Below, piece after piece: positions 38,915 through 49,340 of a stretch of 64,000 nucleotides of DNA. This DNA comes from Brevundimonas huaxiensis (lineage in GTDB: Bacteria; Pseudomonadota; Alphaproteobacteria; Caulobacterales; Caulobacteraceae), in the NCBI RefSeq assembly GCF_014218725.1, contig NZ_JABBJE010000002.1:124001-188000 (forward strand). The letters are read 5' to 3'. Position numbers and translations under genes: made by a program. Below the pieces are notes generated by a model. That model saw only the letters and a program-made list of their open reading frames with translations. It had not been told where the DNA came from and made no database searches. Each line of letters opens with the position of its first letter. Within the stretch, counting starts at the first letter, position 1.

Positions 38915-39910
38915 TCAAGGTAAGACCGGACCCTGGGCGCGTGCTTCATTCTCGCGGGCATAGCGTTGGGCGATGATCGTGCAGGCGAACAGCTGGATCT
39001 GGTGGAACAGCATGATCGGCAGGACGATCAGCGGGACGGCGTGACCGGCGAAAAGGATGCCGGCCATGGGGATGCCGGTGGCCATGCTCTTCTTGGAGCC
39101 GCAGAACAGAATGACGATCCGGTCGGGGCGGTCGAACTTCAGCGCGCGCCCGGCGAAAAGGGTCAGGGCCAGGACGATGGCCAGCAGGGCGATGTTCAGG
39201 CCGATGACCTTGGCCAGATCCAGCGGAGCGACCTGGGACCAGACGCCGGCGACGACGCCCTCGCTGAAGGCGGCGTAGACGATCAGCAGGATGGAGCCGC
39301 GGTCCACCAGCCCTGTCAGCTTGGCGTGGCGGGTCAGCCAGTCCTTCAGCAGGGGGCGGCACAGCTGGCCCACGGCGAAGGGGGCCAGGATTTGCAGGCC
39401 GATGTCGAAAATGGACTGCAGATGGATGCCGCCATTGGCGCCGCCGATCAGCAGGGCGACCAGCAGCGGCGTCACGATCACGCCCAGCAGGTTCGACAGG
39501 CTGGCGCTGGTCAGGGCGCCCGCGACATTGCCGCCGGCGATGGAGGTGAAGGCGATGGACGACTGCACCGTGGACGGCAGCAGGCACAGATACAGCATCC
39601 CAGTCAGCAGATCGGGCTGAAGCGACCCCCGCATCAGAAAGACCAGGCCCAGCCCCAGCAGCGGAAACAGCAGGAAGGTCGACAGGAAGACCGTGCCCTG
39701 AAGCCGCCAGTGCAGCAGCCCCGCGCCGATGGCCGCCGGCGACATCCGCGCGCCATACAGGAAGAACAGCAGGGCGATGGCGGCCTTGACTACCCCGTCC
39801 ATGACGACGGCCGCCTGTCCGCTGGCGGGAAACAGCGCCGCCAGGATCACCATGCCGATCAGGGCCAGAAGATAGCCGTCGATCGGCAGGCGGGACAGGA
39901 AACGAGGCAT
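38915..39910 (-). CDS. SBF-like (SLC10A7-type) sodium/organic-anion transporter
   Basis: A 331-residue polytopic protein with about ten membrane segments. The internal motifs FFLYGARMSP (about 49-58), LLPSTVQSSIAFTSIAGGN (about 110-128) and FCGSKKSMATGIPMA (about 268-282) identify the bile-acid:sodium-symporter-like YfeH/SLC10A7 group. The substrate in bacteria is unknown. It lies just past acs on the same strand (68 bases), so it could be part of the acetate operon, but that is not shown. Confidence 0.85.
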   Translation of the reverse strand: MPRFLSRLPIDGYLLALIGMVILAALFPASGQAAVVMDGVVKAAIALLFFLYGARMSPAAIGAGLLHWRLQGTVFLSTFLLFPLLGLGLVFLMRGSLQPDLLTGMLYLCLLPSTVQSSIAFTSIAGGNVAGALTSASLSNLLGVIVTPLLVALLIGGANGGIHLQSIFDIGLQILAPFAVGQLCRPLLKDWLTRHAKLTGLVDRGSILLIVYAAFSEGVVAGVWSQVAPLDLAKVIGLNIALLAIVLALTLFAGRALKFDRPDRIVILFCGSKKSMATGIPMAGILFAGHAVPLIVLPIMLFHQIQLFACTIIAQRYARENEARAQGPVLP

Positions 39911-39978: not shown

Positions 39979-41934
39979 TCAGGCCCCGGCGCGGTTCTTG
40001 ACCAGATCGTCCACGACCGACGGATCCGCCAGGGTCGAGGTGTCGCCCAGCGCGCCGATTTCGTTCTCGGCGATCTTGCGCAGGATGCGGCGCATGATCT
40101 TGCCCGACCGAGTCTTGGGCAGACCCGGCGCCCACTGGATGACATCGGGGGCGGCGATGGGGCCGATCTCGTGTCGAACGTGGGCGACCAGCGCCTTTCT
40201 CAGATCCTCGGTCGCCTCGACCCCGTTGTTCAGGGTGACATAGGCGTAGATGCCCTGGCCCTTGATGTCGTGGGGATAGCCGACGACCGCCGCCTCGGCG
40301 ACATCGTCGTGCAGAACGAGCGCGCTCTCGACCTCGGCCGTGCCCATCCGGTGGCCGGACACATTGATGACGTCGTCCACCCGGCCGGTGATCCAGTAGT
40401 AGCCGTCCTCGTCCCGGCGGCAGCCGTCGCCGGTGAAGTAGCGGCCCGGATAGGTGGAGAAATAGGTGTCGAAGAAGCGTTGATCGTCGCCATAGACGGT
40501 GCGCATCTGGCCCGGCCAGCTGTCGGTGATGCACAGATTGCCGGAGACGGCGCCCTCCAGCGGCTGACCCTCGGCGTCCACGATCTGAAGCTCGACGCCG
40601 GGCAGGGGCAGGGTCGCCGATCCGGGCTTCAGGTCGGTGGCGCCGGGCAGGGGGGTGATCAGATGGCCGCCCGTCTCGGTCTGCCACCAGGTGTCTACGA
40701 TGGGGCAACGGCCGTCGCCGACCACCTCGTGATACCAGCGCCAGGCCTCGGGGTTGATCGGTTCGCCCACCGTGCCGAGCAGCCGCAGCGAGGCGCGCGA
40801 GGCGGCCTTCACCGGGCCGTCGCCCTCGCGCATCAGGGCGCGCAGGGCCGTGGGGGCGGTGTAGAAGATCTCGACCTTGTGCTTGTCCACCACCTGCCAG
40901 AAACGTCCGGCGTCGGGATAGTTGGGCACGCCCTCGAACATCAGGGTCGTCGCCGCATTCGCGAGGGGGCCATAGACCATGTAGGAATGGCCCGTGACCC
41001 AGCCCACGTCGGCGGTGCACCAGAACACCTCGCCCGGGCGATAGTCGAAGACGATCTCGTGCGTCCAGGCGGCCCAGAACAGATAGCCGCCCGTGGTGTG
41101 CAGCACGCCCTTGGGCTTACCCGTCGAGCCGGAGGTGTAGAGGATGAACAGCGGATCCTCGGCATTCATCGGCTCGGGCGGGCAGTCGGCGTCAACCTTG
41201 GCGGCTTCCAGGCCGTAATCGAAGTCGCGACCCTCGATCATCGGCACGTCCGCGCCGGTGCGGCGAATGACCAGGACGGCGTCGACCTTCACCTTCGTCA
41301 GGGCCTCGTCGACATTGGCCTTCAGCGGAATGCGCTTGCCGCCGCGCAGGCCCTCGTCGGCGGTGATGACCAGGTTTGAGCCGCAGTCCTCGATCCGGCC
41401 GCACAGGCTGTCGGGCGAGAAGCCGCCGAAGACGACCGAATGCACCGCGCCGATCCGCGCACAGGCCAGCATGGCGTAGGCGGCCTCGGGGATCATGGTC
41501 AGATACAGGGTGATCCGGTCGCCCTTCCTGGCCCCATGCGCCTTCAGCACATTGGCCATGCGGCACACCTCGGCGTGCAGTTCCCCGAAGGTGATGTGGC
41601 GGCTGTCGGCGGGATCGTCGCCTTCCCAGATGATCGCCGTCTCGTCCTTGCGGTGGGGCAGGTGACGGTCGATGCAGTTGGCCGAGACGTTCAGGACGCC
41701 GTCCTCGAACCATCGGATGCGGAAGTCTTCCTTGTTGAAGGAGACGTCCTTGATCCGGGTCGGCGGAGTGATCCAGTCCAGACGCTTTGCCTGTTTGGCC
41801 CAGAAGGCGTCAGGCGTCTCGCGCGCGGCGATCCGCGCCGCCTCATACGCCTCCCGGTCCATATGGGCCTTGGCGGCCCAGTCGGCGGGGACGGGATAGA
41901 GGGCGGGATCAGGCACGCGAGACGTCTCCGGCAT
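39979..41934 (-). CDS. acs: Acetyl-CoA synthetase (AMP-forming)
   Basis: Converts acetate, ATP and CoA to acetyl-CoA through acetyl-AMP. The 651-residue protein has the P-loop-like motif [20 protein letters not shown] (about 264-283), the adenylate motif [10 protein letters not shown] (about 413-422), [14 protein letters not shown] (about 516-529) and the acetylation-controlled Lys in RSGKIMRR (about 610). It starts 4 bases after the dcaP stop; a TTG start 3 bases earlier is possible. A CrbS/CrbR-like system, which controls acs in other bacteria, lies beside the operon. Confidence 0.96.
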
Positions 41935-41938
41935 CAAA

Positions 41939-43294
41939 TCAGAATCCGTATTTGGCGAACAGGATCAGACGGGTCATGTCGCCGCTGGCGCCGGTTTCGA
42001 TCTCGCGGTCTGCGAACATCAGCTCGGCCCCGACATCAAACGCCGTAACCGGCGACCAGATCAAGTTGGCGTGGAAGCTCTGGGCCGAACGGTTGGCGGC
42101 CAGGCCCGTGAAGGCCAGGTCGTTGTCCACCTTCTGCGCCGACCAGATCAGGCTGGAACGCCAGCCGGGCGCCCAGACGTGGCGATAGGCGGCGAAGCCG
42201 GCGACCACGCCGATCGCATCCAGATCGCCCGAGCCGTTCAGCACGGCGTCGTTGGAGAAGTTCAGACCGACATAGCGGCCGATGCCCTCGCCGCCCGTCA
42301 CCATCAGGCGCAGATCGTCCTTGGCGCCGACCTTGATCTTGGTCGAGGCCGACAGACCCCAGCCGGTCGCGGTGGAATCGATGTTCGTCGCGGGGTTCTG
42401 GTATTTCAGCTGACGCAGCAGGCTGGCGAACTGGAAGTCGCCCCAGGGCCTGGACACCGCATAGCGGGCGGTGAAGTCCGGGATGCTGTTGTCGTCGGCG
42501 ACGATGCGCGCGCCGCCGCCGCCGAAGGGGGTCACCGTCGTCTCGGGGTTCTCGGCCGAGACCGAGAAGGGCCCGCGGGTGTAGCGGACCTGGACCTGAC
42601 GGGCGAAGACCGTGCCCTCGGCCGCGCCGATGAAGTCGGCGGATTCAGGCAGGACGGCGGTGTTCTGGAAGTTGGTCCACTCCTGGCCGATCAGCCAGTT
42701 GTCGATGGTGATGAAGGCGCGGCGTAGGGCCGGGTTGGCCGGGCTGGTGGTGCGCTGGTCGCCGGCGCCGGGCAGGGTCTGGAAGTCCATCTCCATCCGC
42801 GTGCCGATCTTGTGACCGCCGACCATGCCGTCGGTGGTCAGCCAGAACCGGGTCTGGCGGGCGTTGAAGTCGGTCGCCGTATCCTCATCGGCGCCGCCGA
42901 TGGGAATGGAGCCGGGAATGTGGAATTCACGCAGCGCGTCGCCATTGACCGGATCGCCGCCGGAATAGCGGGTGGCGTAGGCGTCCACCTTGACGAAGCC
43001 GCCGAACTTGACCGTGTGGTCGCCGATGCGGAACCCTTCGCCGGGCGCCGCCAGCGCCGACGACTGCTGGACCGGGGCGGGCGCGGCGGGGCGGGTCTCC
43101 AGGCGGATGATGTCCTGCTGTTGCGCCGCCTGCTGGGTTCGGGCGGCGACGATCTCGGACTTCAGGGCGTTCAACTGGGCTTCTAGCTGAGCGATGCGCG
43201 CCTCGAGCGCGGCCTGGTCCTGGGCCGAGGCCAGGCCGGGCGTCGCCATCAGCGCGACGGCGGCGGCTCCCGCCATCAGGCTTGTCTTGATCAT
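41939..43294 (-). CDS. DcaP-family trimeric outer-membrane porin
   Basis: A 451-residue outer-membrane protein. It has a signal peptide (about 1-24, ending ASA-QD), a periplasmic coiled coil (about 27-65; [20 protein letters not shown]) and a 16-strand-type barrel beginning [14 protein letters not shown]. The mid-protein motif [10 protein letters not shown] and the C-terminal aromatic LILFAKYGF are typical of DcaP porins, which pass dicarboxylates and other acids. It is the first gene of a dcaP-acs operon, suggesting that it admits acetate or related acids. That substrate is inferred. Confidence 0.88.
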
Positions 43295-43373
43295 GATGAA
43301 CCTCCCGCGCCCGTCTGGCGCGGGCGTCCCTTTGGCGACCTTTCCGCCTCCGGCCTCGGGGAGCCATTGGCCA

Positions 43374-43398
43374 TTGGTCTAATTTCGACCAAAGTCGA
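43374..43398. promoter_or_regulatory. Overlapping inverted repeats between dcaP and the crbR-like gene
   Basis: Two perfect inverted repeats overlap: TTGGTC-N7-GACCAA (43374-43392) and TCGAC-CAAA-GTCGA (43385-43398). A tandem CCATTGG pair lies just upstream (43364-43377). The 13-mer TCGACCAAAGTCG (43385-43397) is repeated as its complement at 49304-49316, in front of the MHS transporter gene. It is probably a binding site for the adjacent LuxR-type regulator. Confidence 0.6.
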
Positions 43399-43455
43399 AC
43401 CGCGCCATGATGGCGACGACGCGGCCGGTCAGACGCCGCGCACGGAAGGACGCCC

Positions 43456-44064
43456 ATGGATCGCATCGTCGTCGCCGACGACCATCCCCTGTTTCGCGCC
43501 GCCCTGCGCTCGGCCGTCGACAAGGCGGCGCCGGGCGCGGAGGTGGTGGAATGCGCCAGCCTTGCCGAGGCTAAGGCCGCGATGGTCGCCGGACCGGTCG
43601 ATCTGTTGCTGCTGGATCTGAAGCTGTCGGACAGCGAGGGCATGGCGGGGCTCGCCGCCGTGCGGGCCGAGCAGCCGACCGTGCCGGTGGCGGTGGTCTC
43701 GGCCAGCGAGGACGCGCCGGTGGTGCGCCACGCCCTGGGTCTGGGCGCCGCTGGCTTCATTCCCAAATCTTCGTCCCTGCCGCAGATGGTCGAGGCGATC
43801 GCCGCCATTCTGGCCGGCGACAGCTGGGCCCCGGATGTGCCCAAGACCGACTACGATCTGGCCGCCCGGGTCGCCAGCCTGACGCCGTCGCAACTGCGCA
43901 TCCTGGAAGGGTTGAAGGCCGGGCGGCTGAACAAGCAGATCGCCTTCGACCTCGGTGTTTCCGAAGCCACCATCAAGGCGCATCTGACCAGCGTGTTTCG
44001 AAAGCTGGGCGTTCACAACCGGACCCAGGCGGTGATCCTGGCCAAGTCGCTGGACCCGGCTTAA
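43456..44064 (+). CDS. CrbR-like LuxR-family response regulator
   Basis: A 202-residue two-component regulator. The receiver domain has VADDHPLF at the start, the phospho-acceptor Asp in LLLLDLKLSD (about 55) and SASED. The C-terminal LuxR-type helix-turn-helix is LTPSQLRILEGLKAGRLNKQ then IAFDLGVSEATIKAHLTSVF (about 141-180). In Vibrio and Pseudomonas the CrbR/ErdR regulator of this form activates acs. Here it is divergent from dcaP-acs and convergent with a CrbS-like kinase gene 11 bases away, so it is probably the acetate-response regulator. Confidence 0.88.
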   Translation: MDRIVVADDHPLFRAALRSAVDKAAPGAEVVECASLAEAKAAMVAGPVDLLLLDLKLSDSEGMAGLAAVRAEQPTVPVAVVSASEDAPVVRHALGLGAAGFIPKSSSLPQMVEAIAAILAGDSWAPDVPKTDYDLAARVASLTPSQLRILEGLKAGRLNKQIAFDLGVSEATIKAHLTSVFRKLGVHNRTQAVILAKSLDPA

Positions 44065-44075
44065 CGCGCCAACTC

Positions 44076-47000
44076 CTAGCTCGACAGGAAGGCCTTTAGC
44101 GCCGCCGGCTTTATCGGCTTGGGCAGAAGGACGGCGCCGGCCGCGGTCGCCTGCTCGTTCAGTCCGTCGCGGGTGTCGGCGGTGACCAGGGCGATACGGC
44201 GCACGCCCTGGGGCCTCAGCCAGTCGATGACGGCGAACCCTTCGGGCCCGTCGCCCAGATGCAGATCGACCACGGCGGCGTCGAACGGGCCGACCGCCGC
44301 CTTGGCCGCCTCGACGCTGGCGACCAGCGTCGGCCGCGCGCCCCAGCGGGTGAGCAGGGCGTTCAGCGCGTCCAGGATCACCGGCTCATTGTCCACGCAC
44401 AGCACGCGCAGGCCCGCCAGCGGCAGGCGCGCCTCGCGCACCGGCGCGGCCTCGGCGGGCCGGTCGGCCGCGCTGCGCGGCACGGTGATCCGGAAGGTCG
44501 TGCCGCGCCCCACACGCGAGCTCAGCTCCAGCGGGTGATCGAGCAGGCTGGACAGGCGGCGTACGATGGCCAGGCCCAGGCCCGCGCCCGGCTCGTCCAC
44601 GGCGCCCGGCAGACGCACGAACTCGCCGAAGACGGTTTCATGGTCGGTGTCGGGAATGCCGCGCCCTGTGTCGCAGACGAACAACTGCACCGTCCCGCCC
44701 CGCCGACGCGCCCCCACCAGCACCCGGCCGGCATCCGTATAGCGGATGGCGTTGGCCACCAGATTTTGCAGCATGGAGCGCAGCAGATCGCGGTCGGACG
44801 CGACCCACAGGCGGCTGGGCATCACGGTCAGATCCAGACCCTTGGCCTCGGCCACAGGCGCGAACTCGCGGCGCAGTTCGTCGAACAGCCCGCCCAGCGA
44901 CAGCCGCGCGACATTGGTCCGCACGCCGCCGGCCTCCAGCTTTGACAGGTTCAGCAGGGCCGTCAGCAGACGGTGGGCGCTGTCGATGGCGCGGTCGGCG
45001 TTGACGGCCAGGGTGCGGCTGGTCGCATCCTCAAGCGCCGGCTCCTCCTTCAGGGCGGCGATGAACAGCCGGGCGGCGTGCAGCGGTTGCAGCAGGTCGT
45101 GGCTGGCGGCGGCCAGGAACCGGGTCTTGGAGGCCGTGGCGTCCTCTGCCACGCGCCGGGCCTCATCCAGTCGGGCGGTGCGGTCCGCCACGCGGGCCTC
45201 CAGCCGTTCGTTGGCCTCTTCCAGCTCACGCGCGGCTTGGCGCAGGGCGGTGATGTCGGTGTAGCTGGTGGCGTAGCCGCCGCCGGGGATCGGCGCGCCG
45301 GAGGAGCGAAGCACCCGGCCGTCGGGCTGCTGGCGTTCGTGATCGTGGGAGATGCGGCGGCTCAGCGCCTCCAGCCGCCGCTCGACCCAGGCCTCGATGT
45401 CGTCCGGGCTTTCGCCGCGCTCGGCGTTCAGGCGATAGATGACGGCGATGGGCAGACCGACGTGGACGAAGCCGGCCGGCAGGTCGAACATGGCGACGTA
45501 GCGCCGGTTCCAGGCGGTGACGCGCAGATCCTCGTCCACCACGATCACGCCCTGGTCGATGTTGTCGAGCGTGGTCTGCAGCAGGTCGCGGTTGAACTGG
45601 ACGGCCTGGGACGCCTCGTCCAGCATCCGCACCACGTCCTCGGGCGCGCGTCCAACGCCGGCCAGCGCCGCGGCGATAACCCGCCTGGCCGAGGCCGCGC
45701 CGATGGCGCCCGCCAGCATCCGCTCGGCGGCGCGGGCTAGGGCCGCATCGGCCGGATCGGCGTCGCGGAGCTTTGTGTCGGTCTCATCGCCCCAGGCGGT
45801 GAAAGCGCGCTCGGCCCGTTCGTCGCCGATGAAGCGGGCGACCAGGGCGCGCAGATCGCCGACCGAGGCGCCCGACGGCGCGGGCCGGGCCTCCATCCAG
45901 TCCGGTCCCAGCCGATCCACGAAGGCGCGGGCCTGAACCCGGTCGATCAAGCGGGGCTGGGCGAAGCGCGACACGCCGACATAGGCCGCCAGGTTCAGCG
46001 CCAGGCTGACGAAGACGCCGAGCGCCAGCGGATCCTTGACTCCCATCATGACGTGCAGGTGCCAGGGCGCGCCGGGCGACAGCTGGGGCATGGCCAGCAT
46101 GACGATCCAGACGCCCATGCCGACCGTCATGCCCGCCAGCGCCCCTTGCGCATGGCCGCCCCGCCACAGGACCGCGCCGAACAGGGCCGGCGCCAGCTGG
46201 GCCATCGCCGCGAAGGACACCAGCCCCATGGCCGCCAGGCCGCGCGACTGGTTCGTCGCCTGATAATAGAGCCAGGCCAGCAGCAGGACGGCGACAATGG
46301 CGCCGCGCCGGACCTGAAGAATGGTCCCCGCCATGTCCGAGGCGTCGCCGCGCACCCGCCAACGCTCGCGCGCCAGGAACGGCAGGATCAGGCTGTTGGA
46401 CACCATGGCCGACAGGGCGACGGCCTCGACGATGACCATGGCGGTGGCGGCCGAGAAGCCGCCGACGAAGACCACGGCCGTCAGCAGGGTCTCGCCCCGC
46501 TGGAACGGCAGGGCCAGCACCAGCAGGTCCGGATTGACCGACGGCGCGAACAGGGCGCCCGCCGCCACCAGGGGCAGCACCGCCAGACTGGTCAGCAGCA
46601 GATAGAGCGGAAAGATCCACCTCGCCCGCTTCACGTCCGACGGCTGACCGCCTTCGACGAAGGCGACGTGGAACTGGCGCGGCAGGCAGAAGATGGCCAG
46701 GGTCGACAGCAGGGTGATAGCGGTAAAACGCGGCGTGACCTCGGGCGGTGCGGCCAGGGCGCCCAGGCCCTCTATGATGCGCGGGGGCGATCCTTCGTTC
46801 AGCAGCAGGACCAAAGCGAAGACGGCGACGAACAGCAGGGCGCCCAGCTTGACCATCGACTCCAGCCCGATCGCCTGGATCAGGCCGCGATTGTGCTCGG
46901 TCAGGTCGGGACGGCGCGCGCCGAACAGGATGGCGAAGAAGGCCAGAACGCCCGCTAGCACCAGAACCGTCAGACCCTCGGACCCCGCCACCGGCGTGCC

Positions 47001-47441
47001 GGCGGTCAGCAGGGCGCCGGCCATCGAAAGCGACTTCAGCTGCAGCGCGATATAGGGCAGCGACCCCAGGATGGCGACGATGGTGACGGCCGCGCCCAGG
47101 GTCTGGCTCTTGCCGTAGCGCGAGGCGACGAAGTCGGCCATGGAGCCGACGTTCTCGCGCCGGGCCGCCGCCGCGATCCGCCGCCATAGCGGGAACAGCA
47201 GCGTCAGGCCGATCACCGGGCCGATGTAGATGGGCAGATACTCCCACCCGTCGCGCGCCGCCGTGCCGACCGCGCCGTAGTAGGTCCATGAGGTGCAGTA
47301 GATGGCCAAGGACAGGGCGTAGACCGACGGCCCCAAGCCCTTGCCGCGCGCGCGCGCCGACGGCCGTTCCTGAGACCAGGCGACGGCGAACAGCACCGCC
47401 ATATAGGCGGCGACCAGGCCGAGGATCGTCAGGCTGAACAT
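44076..47441 (-). CDS. CrbS-like sensor: SLC5-type transporter fused to hybrid histidine kinase
   Basis: A 1121-residue protein. The first about 480 residues are a sodium:solute-symporter domain with about 12-13 membrane helices (IYCTSWTYYGAVGTAARDGWEYL near the start; VGSMADFVASRYGKSQ). A STAC-type linker and PAS domain follow (LLQTTLDNIDQGVIVVDEDL near 500-520), then a HisKA H-box AASHDLLQPLHAARLF, an ATPase domain (DTGRGIPD; GAGLGLAIV) and a C-terminal receiver domain with VVDLHLGDG. This is the layout of CrbS/MxtR sensors. The ATG at 47441 is preferred over an upstream GTG. A terminator-like hairpin separates it from the transporter gene ahead. Confidence 0.92.
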   Translation of the reverse strand: MFSLTILGLVAAYMAVLFAVAWSQERPSARARGKGLGPSVYALSLAIYCTSWTYYGAVGTAARDGWEYLPIYIGPVIGLTLLFPLWRRIAAAARRENVGSMADFVASRYGKSQTLGAAVTIVAILGSLPYIALQLKSLSMAGALLTAGTPVAGSEGLTVLVLAGVLAFFAILFGARRPDLTEHNRGLIQAIGLESMVKLGALLFVAVFALVLLLNEGSPPRIIEGLGALAAPPEVTPRFTAITLLSTLAIFCLPRQFHVAFVEGGQPSDVKRARWIFPLYLLLTSLAVLPLVAAGALFAPSVNPDLLVLALPFQRGETLLTAVVFVGGFSAATAMVIVEAVALSAMVSNSLILPFLARERWRVRGDASDMAGTILQVRRGAIVAVLLLAWLYYQATNQSRGLAAMGLVSFAAMAQLAPALFGAVLWRGGHAQGALAGMTVGMGVWIVMLAMPQLSPGAPWHLHVMMGVKDPLALGVFVSLALNLAAYVGVSRFAQPRLIDRVQARAFVDRLGPDWMEARPAPSGASVGDLRALVARFIGDERAERAFTAWGDETDTKLRDADPADAALARAAERMLAGAIGAASARRVIAAALAGVGRAPEDVVRMLDEASQAVQFNRDLLQTTLDNIDQGVIVVDEDLRVTAWNRRYVAMFDLPAGFVHVGLPIAVIYRLNAERGESPDDIEAWVERRLEALSRRISHDHERQQPDGRVLRSSGAPIPGGGYATSYTDITALRQAARELEEANERLEARVADRTARLDEARRVAEDATASKTRFLAAASHDLLQPLHAARLFIAALKEEPALEDATSRTLAVNADRAIDSAHRLLTALLNLSKLEAGGVRTNVARLSLGGLFDELRREFAPVAEAKGLDLTVMPSRLWVASDRDLLRSMLQNLVANAIRYTDAGRVLVGARRRGGTVQLFVCDTGRGIPDTDHETVFGEFVRLPGAVDEPGAGLGLAIVRRLSSLLDHPLELSSRVGRGTTFRITVPRSAADRPAEAAPVREARLPLAGLRVLCVDNEPVILDALNALLTRWGARPTLVASVEAAKAAVGPFDAAVVDLHLGDGPEGFAVIDWLRPQGVRRIALVTADTRDGLNEQATAAGAVLLPKPIKPAALKAFLSS

Positions 47442-47482
47442 CGGGGCATCTGAACCGGGCAAGGGGTGTTTCACAAGCGAAA

Positions 47483-47508
47483 GGCGGGCCGTCCTGCGAC
47501 GACCCGCC
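47483..47508 (-). terminator. Terminator-like hairpin between the MHS transporter and CrbS-like genes
   Basis: GGCGGG pairs with CCCGCC and, after one mismatch, CGTC pairs with GACG around a 4-base loop. It lies 24 bases past the transporter stop on the minus strand and is followed by CTTTCGCTT. The CrbS-like gene therefore probably has its own promoter in 47442-47480. Confidence 0.55.
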
Positions 47509-47531
47509 CTCCATTGCGCCTGAAAGCAGGA

Positions 47532-49205
47532 TCAGGCGTTCAGATCGACGTCCTTGCCTTCCTTGACCAGCAGGAAGCCCAGAACGACTGTCCCCAAAGC
47601 CACCACGATCGGGTACCAGAGGCCGGAGTAGATATTGCCCGTCGCCGCCACGATGGCGAAGGCGGTGGTCGGCAGGAAGCCGCCGAACCAGCCGTTGCCG
47701 ATGTGATAGGGCAGGGACATGGAGGTGTAGCGGATGTTGGTCGGGAACATCTCGACCAAGGCCGCCGCGATTGGTCCGTAGACCATGGTCACATAGAAGC
47801 CGAGGATGAAAAGGATCAGCACCACCATCGGCTTGTTGACCAGGGCGCTGTCGGCCTTGGCCGGATAGCCGGCGGCGGTCAGCGCCTCGCCCAGGCTCTT
47901 GTCCCAGGTCTTCTTCTGGGCGGCGAAATCGGCCGGGGCCATGGCGTCGCCCCGGAAGCTGGGGATGACGACTTGATCGCCGATGCGGACCTCGGCGACC
48001 GTGCCCGCCGGCGCCGCGACGTTGGTGTAGGTCACGCCCGCCTTGGCCAGATAGGATTTGGCCACGTCGCAGGAGTGGTTGAACACCGTCTTGCCTACCG
48101 GATCGAACTGCAGATTACAGTCGGCCGGATCGGCATAGACCGTGACGGGCGCCGAGGCGGCGGCGGCGGCCAGTTTCGGATTGGCGGCCTGGGTCAGGGC
48201 GTTGAACAGCGGGAAATAGGTCAGGGCCGCGATCAGGCAGCCGGCCAGGATGATCGGCTTGCGCCCCACCTTATCCGACAGCCAGCCCCAAAAGATGAAG
48301 AAGGGCGACGCCGCGAGAAGCGCGATGGTCAGCAGCACATAGACCAGGGTGGCGTCGAGCTTCATGACCCGTTCCAGGAAGAACAGGGCGTAGAACTGGC
48401 CTGTGTACCAGATGACGGCCTGACCGGCGGTGAGGCCCAGCAGGGCGATCAGCACCAGCTTCAGGTTGGGCCATTTGCCGAAGCTGTCCTTCAGCGGGGT
48501 CTTGGAGCCCTTGCCCTCGGCCTTCATCCGCTTGAACGACGGGCTTTCGGCCAGCTTCAGGCGGATCCACAGGGAGACGCCCAAGAGCAGGATCGAGACC
48601 AGGAACGGAATGCGCCAGCCCCAGGCGGCGAAGGCCTCTTCGCCGACCGCAAGCCGGACGCTCAGGATCACCACGAGGCTCAGCACCAGGCCGGCGGTCG
48701 CCGTGATCTGGATGAAGGAGGTGTAGAAGCCGCGCTTGCCCTGCGGGGCGTGCTCGGCGACGTAGGTGGCGGCGCCGCCGTATTCACCGCCCAGGGCCAG
48801 GCCCTGGATCAGGCGCATCAGCACCAGGATGATGGGCGCGGCGATGCCGATGACCGCATAGGGCGGCAACAGGCCGACGACGAAGGTCGACAGACCCATC
48901 AGCAGCATGGTGACGAGGAAGGTGTTCTTGCGTCCCCACAGGTCGCCCAGCCGCCCGAAGACGATGGCGCCGAAGGGTCTCACCGCAAAGCCGGCGGCGA
49001 AGGCCATCAGGGCGAAGATGTAGCCGGTCGTCTCGTTGACGCCCGAGAAGAACTGGACGGTGATGATCGCCGCCAGCGAGCCGTAGAGATAGAAGTCGTA
49101 CCACTCGATGACGGTGCCGACCGATGAGGCGAGGATGACCAGGCGATCGCTGCGATCGACGGTGTGCTCCTCTCCTCCGGACGCAAGGGGTGCGTCGGTT
49201 GCCAT
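47532..49205 (-). CDS. MHS-family (ProP/ShiA-like) MFS metabolite:H+ symporter with extra loop
   Basis: A 557-residue major-facilitator protein of the metabolite:H+ symporter family. It has IEWYDFYLYGSLAAIITVQF near residue 34, FAVRPFGAIVFGRLGDLWGRKN (loop 2-3 motif, written as positions about 72-93), LIQGLALGGEYGGAATYVAE near 138 and WLSDKVGRKP in the second half. Between helices 8 and 9 there is an insertion of about 110-120 residues with two cysteines (DCNLQF...HSCDVAKSYL) that is absent in the usual 430-450-residue members. The gene is near the acs control system and shares its putative operator. It may import acetate or a related acid; the substrate is inferred. Confidence 0.87.
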   Translation of the reverse strand: MATDAPLASGGEEHTVDRSDRLVILASSVGTVIEWYDFYLYGSLAAIITVQFFSGVNETTGYIFALMAFAAGFAVRPFGAIVFGRLGDLWGRKNTFLVTMLLMGLSTFVVGLLPPYAVIGIAAPIILVLMRLIQGLALGGEYGGAATYVAEHAPQGKRGFYTSFIQITATAGLVLSLVVILSVRLAVGEEAFAAWGWRIPFLVSILLLGVSLWIRLKLAESPSFKRMKAEGKGSKTPLKDSFGKWPNLKLVLIALLGLTAGQAVIWYTGQFYALFFLERVMKLDATLVYVLLTIALLAASPFFIFWGWLSDKVGRKPIILAGCLIAALTYFPLFNALTQAANPKLAAAAASAPVTVYADPADCNLQFDPVGKTVFNHSCDVAKSYLAKAGVTYTNVAAPAGTVAEVRIGDQVVIPSFRGDAMAPADFAAQKKTWDKSLGEALTAAGYPAKADSALVNKPMVVLILFILGFYVTMVYGPIAAALVEMFPTNIRYTSMSLPYHIGNGWFGGFLPTTAFAIVAATGNIYSGLWYPIVVALGTVVLGFLLVKEGKDVDLNA

Positions 49206-49303
49206 GATCCATTTCCTCCCGTGTCGCCGTTATCGGCCGTTCTGCACATCCTTCAGGATGCGTGGACGCCGACATTGACCGAGAGCGGGGCGAGTGGAGA
49301 GAG

Positions 49304-49316
49304 CGACTTTGGTCGA
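49304..49316. promoter_or_regulatory. Shared CGAC-TTTG-GTCGA site in front of the MHS transporter gene
   Basis: The 13-mer CGACTTTGGTCGA is the exact complement of 43385-43397 in the dcaP/crbR-like promoter region. It lies about 100 bases ahead of the MHS transporter start on the minus strand. The rest of 49206-49363 holds a GGTCGCC/GGCGACC hairpin and a repeated GTCGAGGATCG (49313 and 49347). Confidence 0.55.
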
Positions 49317-49324
49317 GGATCGTC

Positions 49325-49340
49325 GGTCGCCAAGGCGACC
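49325..49340 (-). terminator. GGTCGCC/GGCGACC hairpin after the acyltransferase gene
   Basis: A perfect 7-bp stem with only a 2-base centre lies 24 bases past the acyltransferase stop. No T-run follows. It may end the acyltransferase transcript before the transporter promoter. Confidence 0.4.

Follow-up and report, generated by a model that had tools for sequence, protein, structure and literature searches.

What is an inverted repeat doing at both ends of a block of sensor and regulator genes in Brevundimonas huaxiensis? The window analysed here is a stretch of 64,000 nucleotides from this member of the Caulobacteraceae (contig NZ_JABBJE010000002.1), in which the 13-mer TCGACCAAAGTCG lies at 43385-43397 on the forward strand, between the gene for the outer-membrane protein DcaP and that for a CrbR-like regulator with receiver and GerE domains, while its exact complement lies at 49304-49316 on the reverse strand, about 100 bases ahead of a gene for a transporter of the metabolite:H+ symporter (MHS) type. 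The original prediction, made from the letters of the window, had pointed out this pair and read it as the operator of the CrbR-like regulator, and hence as the mark of an acetate regulon that includes the MHS gene. Both copies and their placement are borne out, with no further copy in the window, and the regulatory reading is supported by the fit of the sites to the ACTU motif and, within the genus, by a comparative test. We put the probability at roughly 0.88 that three sites, namely the two copies (A1 and B) and a second box beside the first (A2), serve CrbR as operators in an acetate regulon, a judgement that draws on sequence comparison. The sites and the genes around them are as follows.

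43385-43398, forward strand: candidate operator A1, the perfect 5-N4-5 inverted repeat TCGACCAAAGTCGA (17-base ACTU frame 43384-43400).
43366-43382, reverse strand: candidate operator A2, the degenerate ACTU box TTAGACCAATGGCCAAT abutting A1, distinguished by the top matrix score and by conservation.
49303-49316, reverse strand: candidate operator B, TCGACCAAAGTCGC, centred 104 nucleotides ahead of the start codon of MHS (49205); probable promoter site of MHS and crbS.
41939-43294, reverse strand: dcaP, outer-membrane protein (Pfam PF19577).
43456-44064, forward strand: crbR/erdR-like response regulator, receiver plus LuxR-type GerE domain (PF00072 and PF00196, above cut-offs).
44076-47474, reverse strand: crbS-like hybrid histidine kinase with a predicted SLC5-fold N-terminus, then PAS, HisKA, HATPase and receiver domains (Pfam, predicted fold).
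47532-49205, reverse strand: MHS-family transporter of the major facilitator superfamily (Pfam Sugar_tr and MFS_1; NCBIfam TIGR00883).

The core that had been proposed, TCGAC-N4-GTCGA, occurs perfectly at the 14-mer level only once in the window, in the first copy, and the second copy (GCGACTTTGGTCGA, 49303-49316) does differ by one arm base. The whole GC-rich window has 749 cases of a 13-mer paired with its own inverted copy, and 5-N4-5 inverted repeats with perfect arms number 113, so that a bare 13-mer match is no evidence on its own; what goes beyond chance is the location of the site together with its conservation. A1 stands 64 nucleotides from the start of crbR and about 97 nucleotides ahead of dcaP. 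In relatives its arms change symmetrically, to TTTAGACCAAAGTCTAA (AGAC...GTCT) at two loci (L043 and L128) and to TAGAC...GTCTA at a third (L142), which is the expectation for a site read by a dimer.

Does the repeat match an operator already described? Excerpts from the work on Pseudomonas fluorescens (PMC5715377) describe ACTU as an imperfect inverted repeat required for activation by CrbR, a requirement tested with point mutations and in E. coli; the site of the acs gene there is TACTACCATCGTCGAAT, and Table 4 of that article lists further, predicted matches, among them TACTACCAAAGTCTAAT and TACGACTAAAGTCTAAA. The counterpart of the published sites in our window, TTCGACCAAAGTCGAAC, fits the motif. 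So as not to lean on resemblance, we took 61 regions upstream of acs from gammaproteobacterial loci that have a CrbR-type gene and trained a matrix on them de novo, using expectation-maximisation with random starting points. The motif recovered was TaATACCAATGTCTAAT, situated mostly about 90-120 nucleotides before acs. When this matrix was run over both strands of the window (127,968 positions), the best position was A2 with a score of 16.0, the second was A1 with 14.6, and the third fell within the MHS gene. Among 100 simulated windows the level of A1 (14.55) was reached in 2 and that of A2 (16.04) in 1, and two matches of at least 14.55 were found together in 1. A2 had been overlooked in the original prediction.

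The comparison with relatives draws on 101 genomes of the same genus, 47 of which have a close crbR match (E<=1e-60) and are called crbR+ here, the others crbR-. A1 is found within 2 mismatches in all 47 crbR+ genomes, and so is A2, whose consensus was drawn from these same genomes; the two boxes are about equally conserved, and the 17 bp between their core centres do not vary in any of the 47. An alignment of 22 loci makes the A2-A1 block conspicuous against its divergent flanks. The dcaP-acs side has two abutting boxes rather than one.

Which of the divergent genes, then, does A1 serve? Across the 47 genomes its distance to crbR is confined to 64-81 nucleotides, and the core centre of A2 lies about 80 nucleotides before the dcaP start codon, near the roughly 78 implied by the published map for acs in P. 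fluorescens, so that A1 might chiefly be there for autoregulation of crbR, and dcaP-acs might depend on A2 or a different element. We consider this unlikely, if still worth weighing, since the conserved block extends toward dcaP, through A2 and its fixed spacing, whereas the crbR side is poorly conserved past close relatives, and since loci without an intact dcaP (L043, L046 and L197) keep the A2-A1 block, there ahead of acs. One of these loci retains the last 48 residues of dcaP as a remnant between acs and the operator block (L043 9668-9811), a natural deletion that has put A1 in front of acs.

Site B was compared in the same 101 genomes, as a site within 3 mismatches in the 300 nucleotides before close MHS genes, a scope that leaves out more distant (about 55%) MHS paralogues. 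All 46 crbR+ genomes with a close MHS gene have the site, at 101-126 nucleotides from the start codon, the 47th (G201) lacking such a gene. A close MHS gene occurs in 26 crbR- genomes, and the site is in none of the 22 whose upstream region was read (G228, G235, G225 and G227 are left out of this count); nor is it before either of the two close second MHS copies found in crbR+ genomes. The conservation in relatives to which the original prediction looked thus stood within the genus, at dcaP/acs-crbR (47 of 47) as at MHS, and proved looser outside it. In this genome MHS and crbS lie on the same strand with a gap of 57 nucleotides between the MHS stop (47532) and the crbS start, at or after 47474. 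Their adjacency is kept at seven loci (L041-L045, L047 and L048); in G102 (L192) the MHS-crbS block is inverted relative to crbR and still has its own site in front; and L046, which has no MHS match, carries a looser site, TTGACCAAAGTCTC (3 mismatches), about 215 nucleotides before crbS. In view of these three observations, B most plausibly serves as a promoter site for MHS and crbS together, and MHS probably heads an MHS-crbS operon. If B drives such an operon, the sensor would be under the control of its own regulator. Beside B, at 49325-49340, lies another inverted repeat, GGTCGCC-AA-GGCGACC (7-2-7), which in the MHS alignment only a few close relatives have and which is perhaps the terminator of the upstream acyltransferase gene. 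Twenty crbR- loci were read for acs downstream of MHS: three (L423, L425 and L428) have it whole or almost whole within about 400-600 nucleotides, three others have a partial or more distant acs (L424, L427 and L430), and 14 have none; at one locus additional to these (L392, in G058) acs adjoins MHS.

Are there further targets in the genome? Its 3.16 Mb contain three exact copies of CGACCAAAGTCG (none of a reversed-pattern control) and, if 2 mismatches are tolerated in the 14-mer, 33 matches (10 for the control). With gene positions taken from our own script for calling open reading frames, 28 of these near-matches lie inside reading frames, and were rejected as regulon members for that reason, one lies between convergent genes, and four are in promoter position: at dcaP/crbR, at MHS, and at two unlinked genes that also carry ACTU-type sites, cstA and an acetyl-CoA hydrolase/transferase gene. 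Sites of this type thus stand ahead of genes for acetate utilization (dcaP-acs and the hydrolase/transferase gene) as well as MHS and cstA. The cstA site (G000:C7:68744-68757; L037 2745) lies 71 nucleotides before the start of a gene for a CstA-type (carbon starvation) pyruvate symporter. The other (G000:C9:61983-61996; L036 2484) lies 39 nucleotides before the hydrolase/transferase gene and overlaps the stop codon of an upstream PAP2-like gene; the protein carries acetyl-CoA hydrolase/transferase domains and scores 73 bits with the NCBIfam ScpC model NF053853, far under the cut-off of 500 for ScpC/AarC. Within 3 mismatches, the site at this CoA-transferase gene is found in 38 of 39 crbR+ against 2 of 7 crbR- genomes, and that at cstA in 36 of 37 against 1 of 2, one crbR+ cstA match (G260) being out of register with the remainder. 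A close cstA itself is present in 37 of the 47 crbR+ and in 2 of the 54 crbR- genomes. A looser pattern, HMGACYWWDGTCKA, gave 9 matches at 8 places genome-wide (control 3) and no clear additional promoter target.

Further exact copies of CGACCAAAGTCG occur elsewhere in crbR+ genomes at 12 places (L180-L191). Seven are in reading frames, two (G180 and G168; L182 and L186) correspond to the convergent-gene copy discussed below, and three are intergenic, one of them in G177 with no gene called nearby and two in G198. In G198 one copy lies about 300 nucleotides before an sdh-type operon (L183 2068) and the other 143 nucleotides before a sucA-type gene (L184 2015), the latter with longer GC-rich arms that perhaps form a terminator; these are possible tricarboxylic acid cycle targets in that one genome.

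How closely, then, do the sites follow the regulator? Among 40 genomes of the genus, the 21 that are crbR+ together have 43 copies of exact CGACCAAAGTCG and the 19 that are crbR- have 4 (Mann-Whitney p=1e-6); the reversed control gave 6 and 4 (p=0.40). On a tree of MHS proteins with 58 rows (34 crbR+ and 24 crbR-), the presence of crbR and that of the site agree in all 58. The fact that only 47 of the 101 genomes have a close crbR suggests gain or loss as a unit. Outside the genus the picture is more varied. Nine crbR loci from other genera were read (L142-L150), and in three (L142-L144) a site with 1-3 mismatches lies beside crbR. A wider view of the first of these (L196) shows the gene order of our window, with ACTU-like sites ahead of MHS and in the interval from crbR to dcaP, and a Nevskiaceae contig (L120) has two such sites between divergent crbS and MHS genes. 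Two genomes from the genus of L145-L150 (L193 and L194) have a CGACCAAAGTCG site about 46-48 nucleotides before acs instead. A phylum-wide search found MHS matches in 79 of 397 genomes, and 27 homologues outside the genus were read as loci. Four of these (L397, L398, L401 and L418) have a close ACTU-like site. When the upstream region of each was shuffled 30 times, no more than 1-2 of the shuffles gave a better match than the real site, so that about one in 27 is expected by chance; the other 23 have none, and the link between MHS and ACTU is not universal.

Several observations weigh against reading the sites as CrbR operators. On the MHS tree the labels change only three times, twice on well-supported branches, and an attempt at a phylogenetically significant association between crbR and the site failed, since with 2-3 independent changes a sign test cannot reach significance. 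In other genera of the family, a hand count of the exact 12-mer gave 12 copies in 14 crbR+ genomes and 59 copies in 145 others, only a twofold excess, and six of the nine other-genus crbR loci (L145-L150) have no A1-like site beside crbR. Site B scores only -2.0 with our matrix, which is gammaproteobacterial, and ranks 96th of 127,968 positions; the case for B rests on its conservation in relatives, to which its identity with A1 adds support. The remaining exact copy in the genome (G000:C6:1950-1963; L034), near-perfect as a 14-mer and found again at the corresponding position of G180 and G168, sits between two convergent genes and was not adopted as an operator. The regulator scores 187.6 bits with the NCBIfam ErdR model NF041830, under the cut-off of 390, and is therefore named CrbR-like here. 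For Pseudomonas putida, an excerpt from the published account (PMC8402216) reports no binding of ErdR to the promoter of acsA-I. Two crbR- genomes (G211 and G217, 93% and 82% complete) retain the CoA-transferase site with no regulator match found in them at E<=1e-15, and the cstA promoters of both crbR- genomes that have one (G230 and G122) retain partly decayed sites.

This persistence of sites without a close crbR, together with the comparative nature of the evidence for CrbR, speaks for a rival reading in which some other regulator uses the palindrome and crbR only travels with the genes. We regard that as improbable, because a matrix trained on other bacteria with a CrbR-type gene singles out A1 and A2 within 64 kb, because the sites track the presence of crbR at the MHS locus and mostly also at the CoA-transferase locus, and because the window regulator shares with its gammaproteobacterial counterparts the helix-turn-helix segment LNKQIA...EAT(I/V)KAH. 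That the 13-mer is a chance repeat or a functionless copied piece of promoter, which the abundance of such pairs in the window might suggest, is so unlikely that we reject it on the conservation of both boxes in all 47 crbR+ genomes, their distinctness from divergent flanks, and the symmetric changes in their arms.

As for the proteins of the locus, ErdR is still the top model for the regulator among 59 NCBIfam models, the runner-up reaching 92.5 bits, and its helix-turn-helix segment is close to that of gammaproteobacterial homologues, the residues given above being constant in 26 sequences compared. Among the best 80 crbR matches listed, 10 are Brevundimonas-type loci and the rest come mostly from Gammaproteobacteria at near 50% identity; crbR in other genera of the Caulobacteraceae is at 43-59%. 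A record titled as a metagenome-assembled genome of Bordetella sp. (L050) carries a Brevundimonas-type acs-dcaP-crbR locus at 76-83% identity, so that the record is probably mistitled or its bin a mixture. The crbS-like kinase matches PAS, HisKA and HATPase_c in Pfam, its receiver reaching 29.2 bits, just under the cut-off of 30.2, and it matches the histidine kinase chain 10ed_A of the PDB with E=7.5e-57. Its N-terminus has no match to Pfam SSF. An AlphaFold2 model of that region (mean pLDDT, the predicted confidence score, 81) matches structures of SGLT1/2, NIS, CHT1 and SMCT1, with a best E of 2e-9 and TM-scores mostly of 0.6-0.7; as modelled, it has an SLC5 transporter fold. The Pfam scans of the kinase gave no match under the name STAC, whether such a Pfam model exists not having been checked. 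MHS scores 356.6 bits with TIGR00883, under the cut-off of 443, and by its sequence groups with metabolite:H+ symporters. The genome gave no Pfam SSF match that would indicate a canonical permease of the ActP type; since Pfam SSF also misses the crbS-like kinase, very divergent SLC5 proteins may still be present. Two genes lie downstream of dcaP.

39979-41937, reverse strand: acs, acetate-CoA ligase (NCBIfam TIGR02188, 993.8 bits, above cut-off).
38915-39910, reverse strand: SBF-like transporter (Pfam PF13593), possibly the last gene of the dcaP-acs unit.

Searched with tblastn, the SBF-like gene has matches at L041-L043 only, among 10 loci.

How does this compare with known systems? As far as excerpts from the studies of ACTU and CrbS-CrbR (MxtR-ErdR) in Gammaproteobacteria go (PMC5715377, PMC8402216, PMC9927547), those systems and our window have in common an operator core GAC-N4-GTC with symmetric flanks, the type of regulator, a hybrid kinase with an SLC5-fold sensor (a fold predicted here), and, among the targets (putative ones in the window), acs and a member of the acetyl-CoA hydrolase/transferase gene family; in P. 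putida, ErdR is reported to bind the scpC, pp_0354 and actP-I promoters (PMC8402216). Relative to the 90-120 nucleotides usual for gammaproteobacterial acs, A2 and A1 stand about 80 and 97 nucleotides before dcaP. The window differs in belonging to the Caulobacteraceae, in its two abutting boxes at dcaP/crbR, in having genes for DcaP, MHS and CstA as putative targets, in a sensor gene that is probably behind MHS, in having no detected canonical ActP-type SSF protein, and in a CoA-transferase that is not ScpC by NCBIfam. Among Alphaproteobacteria, an excerpt from work on Sinorhizobium fredii NGR234 (PMC9100948) reports that CrbS/R is needed for growth on acetate; the DNA motif studied in that text is the RpuR direct repeat. 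The pyruvate system RpuS/R-mctP, from the same source, is also an SLC5/STAC kinase system controlling a transporter operon, but differs in its imperfect direct repeat, its target and its substrate. Judged by titles and abstract openings among the matches listed, no literature on this regulon in Caulobacteraceae was found. Very probably, going by the sequence likenesses, the operator of an acetate-sensing regulator previously known from other bacteria is present here in Brevundimonas-type Caulobacteraceae.

From these comparisons we infer a mechanism, including its inducer, binding, activation, the direction of control at A1 and A2, and operon structure. By analogy with Pseudomonas, Vibrio and Sinorhizobium, the presence of acetate or of a related metabolite would lead CrbS to phosphorylate CrbR, and CrbR dimers would then bind ACTU sites and switch on transcription. 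A1 and A2 would drive dcaP-acs and perhaps also crbR in the opposite direction, B would drive MHS and, through probable read-through, crbS, and the unlinked sites would drive the acetyl-CoA hydrolase/transferase gene and cstA. Such a regulon would span outer-membrane entry (DcaP), inner-membrane uptake (MHS and CstA), activation to acetyl-CoA (Acs and the CoA-transferase) and the sensor itself. We further propose, tentatively and with the odds somewhat against it, that MHS may be a permease for acetate (a short-chain monocarboxylate) replacing ActP, co-expressed with CrbS as a self-amplifying operon for uptake and sensing, and that A1-A2 may be a two-dimer operator of fixed spacing, giving dcaP-acs a sharp threshold of response to acetate.

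What the locus means for the organism follows from this reading of the sites as CrbR operators. A gammaproteobacterial operator tested by mutation would be carried into the Caulobacteraceae with an altered list of targets, and the acetate switch of Brevundimonas and its relatives becomes directly testable. Four promoters gain a proposed regulator, and a function is suggested for DcaP and for an MHS protein with no known substrate. The regulon would be a case of rewiring, in which the type of regulator and its operator are kept and the permease is different; and, if true, a sensor gene behind its own operator would form a positive feedback loop.

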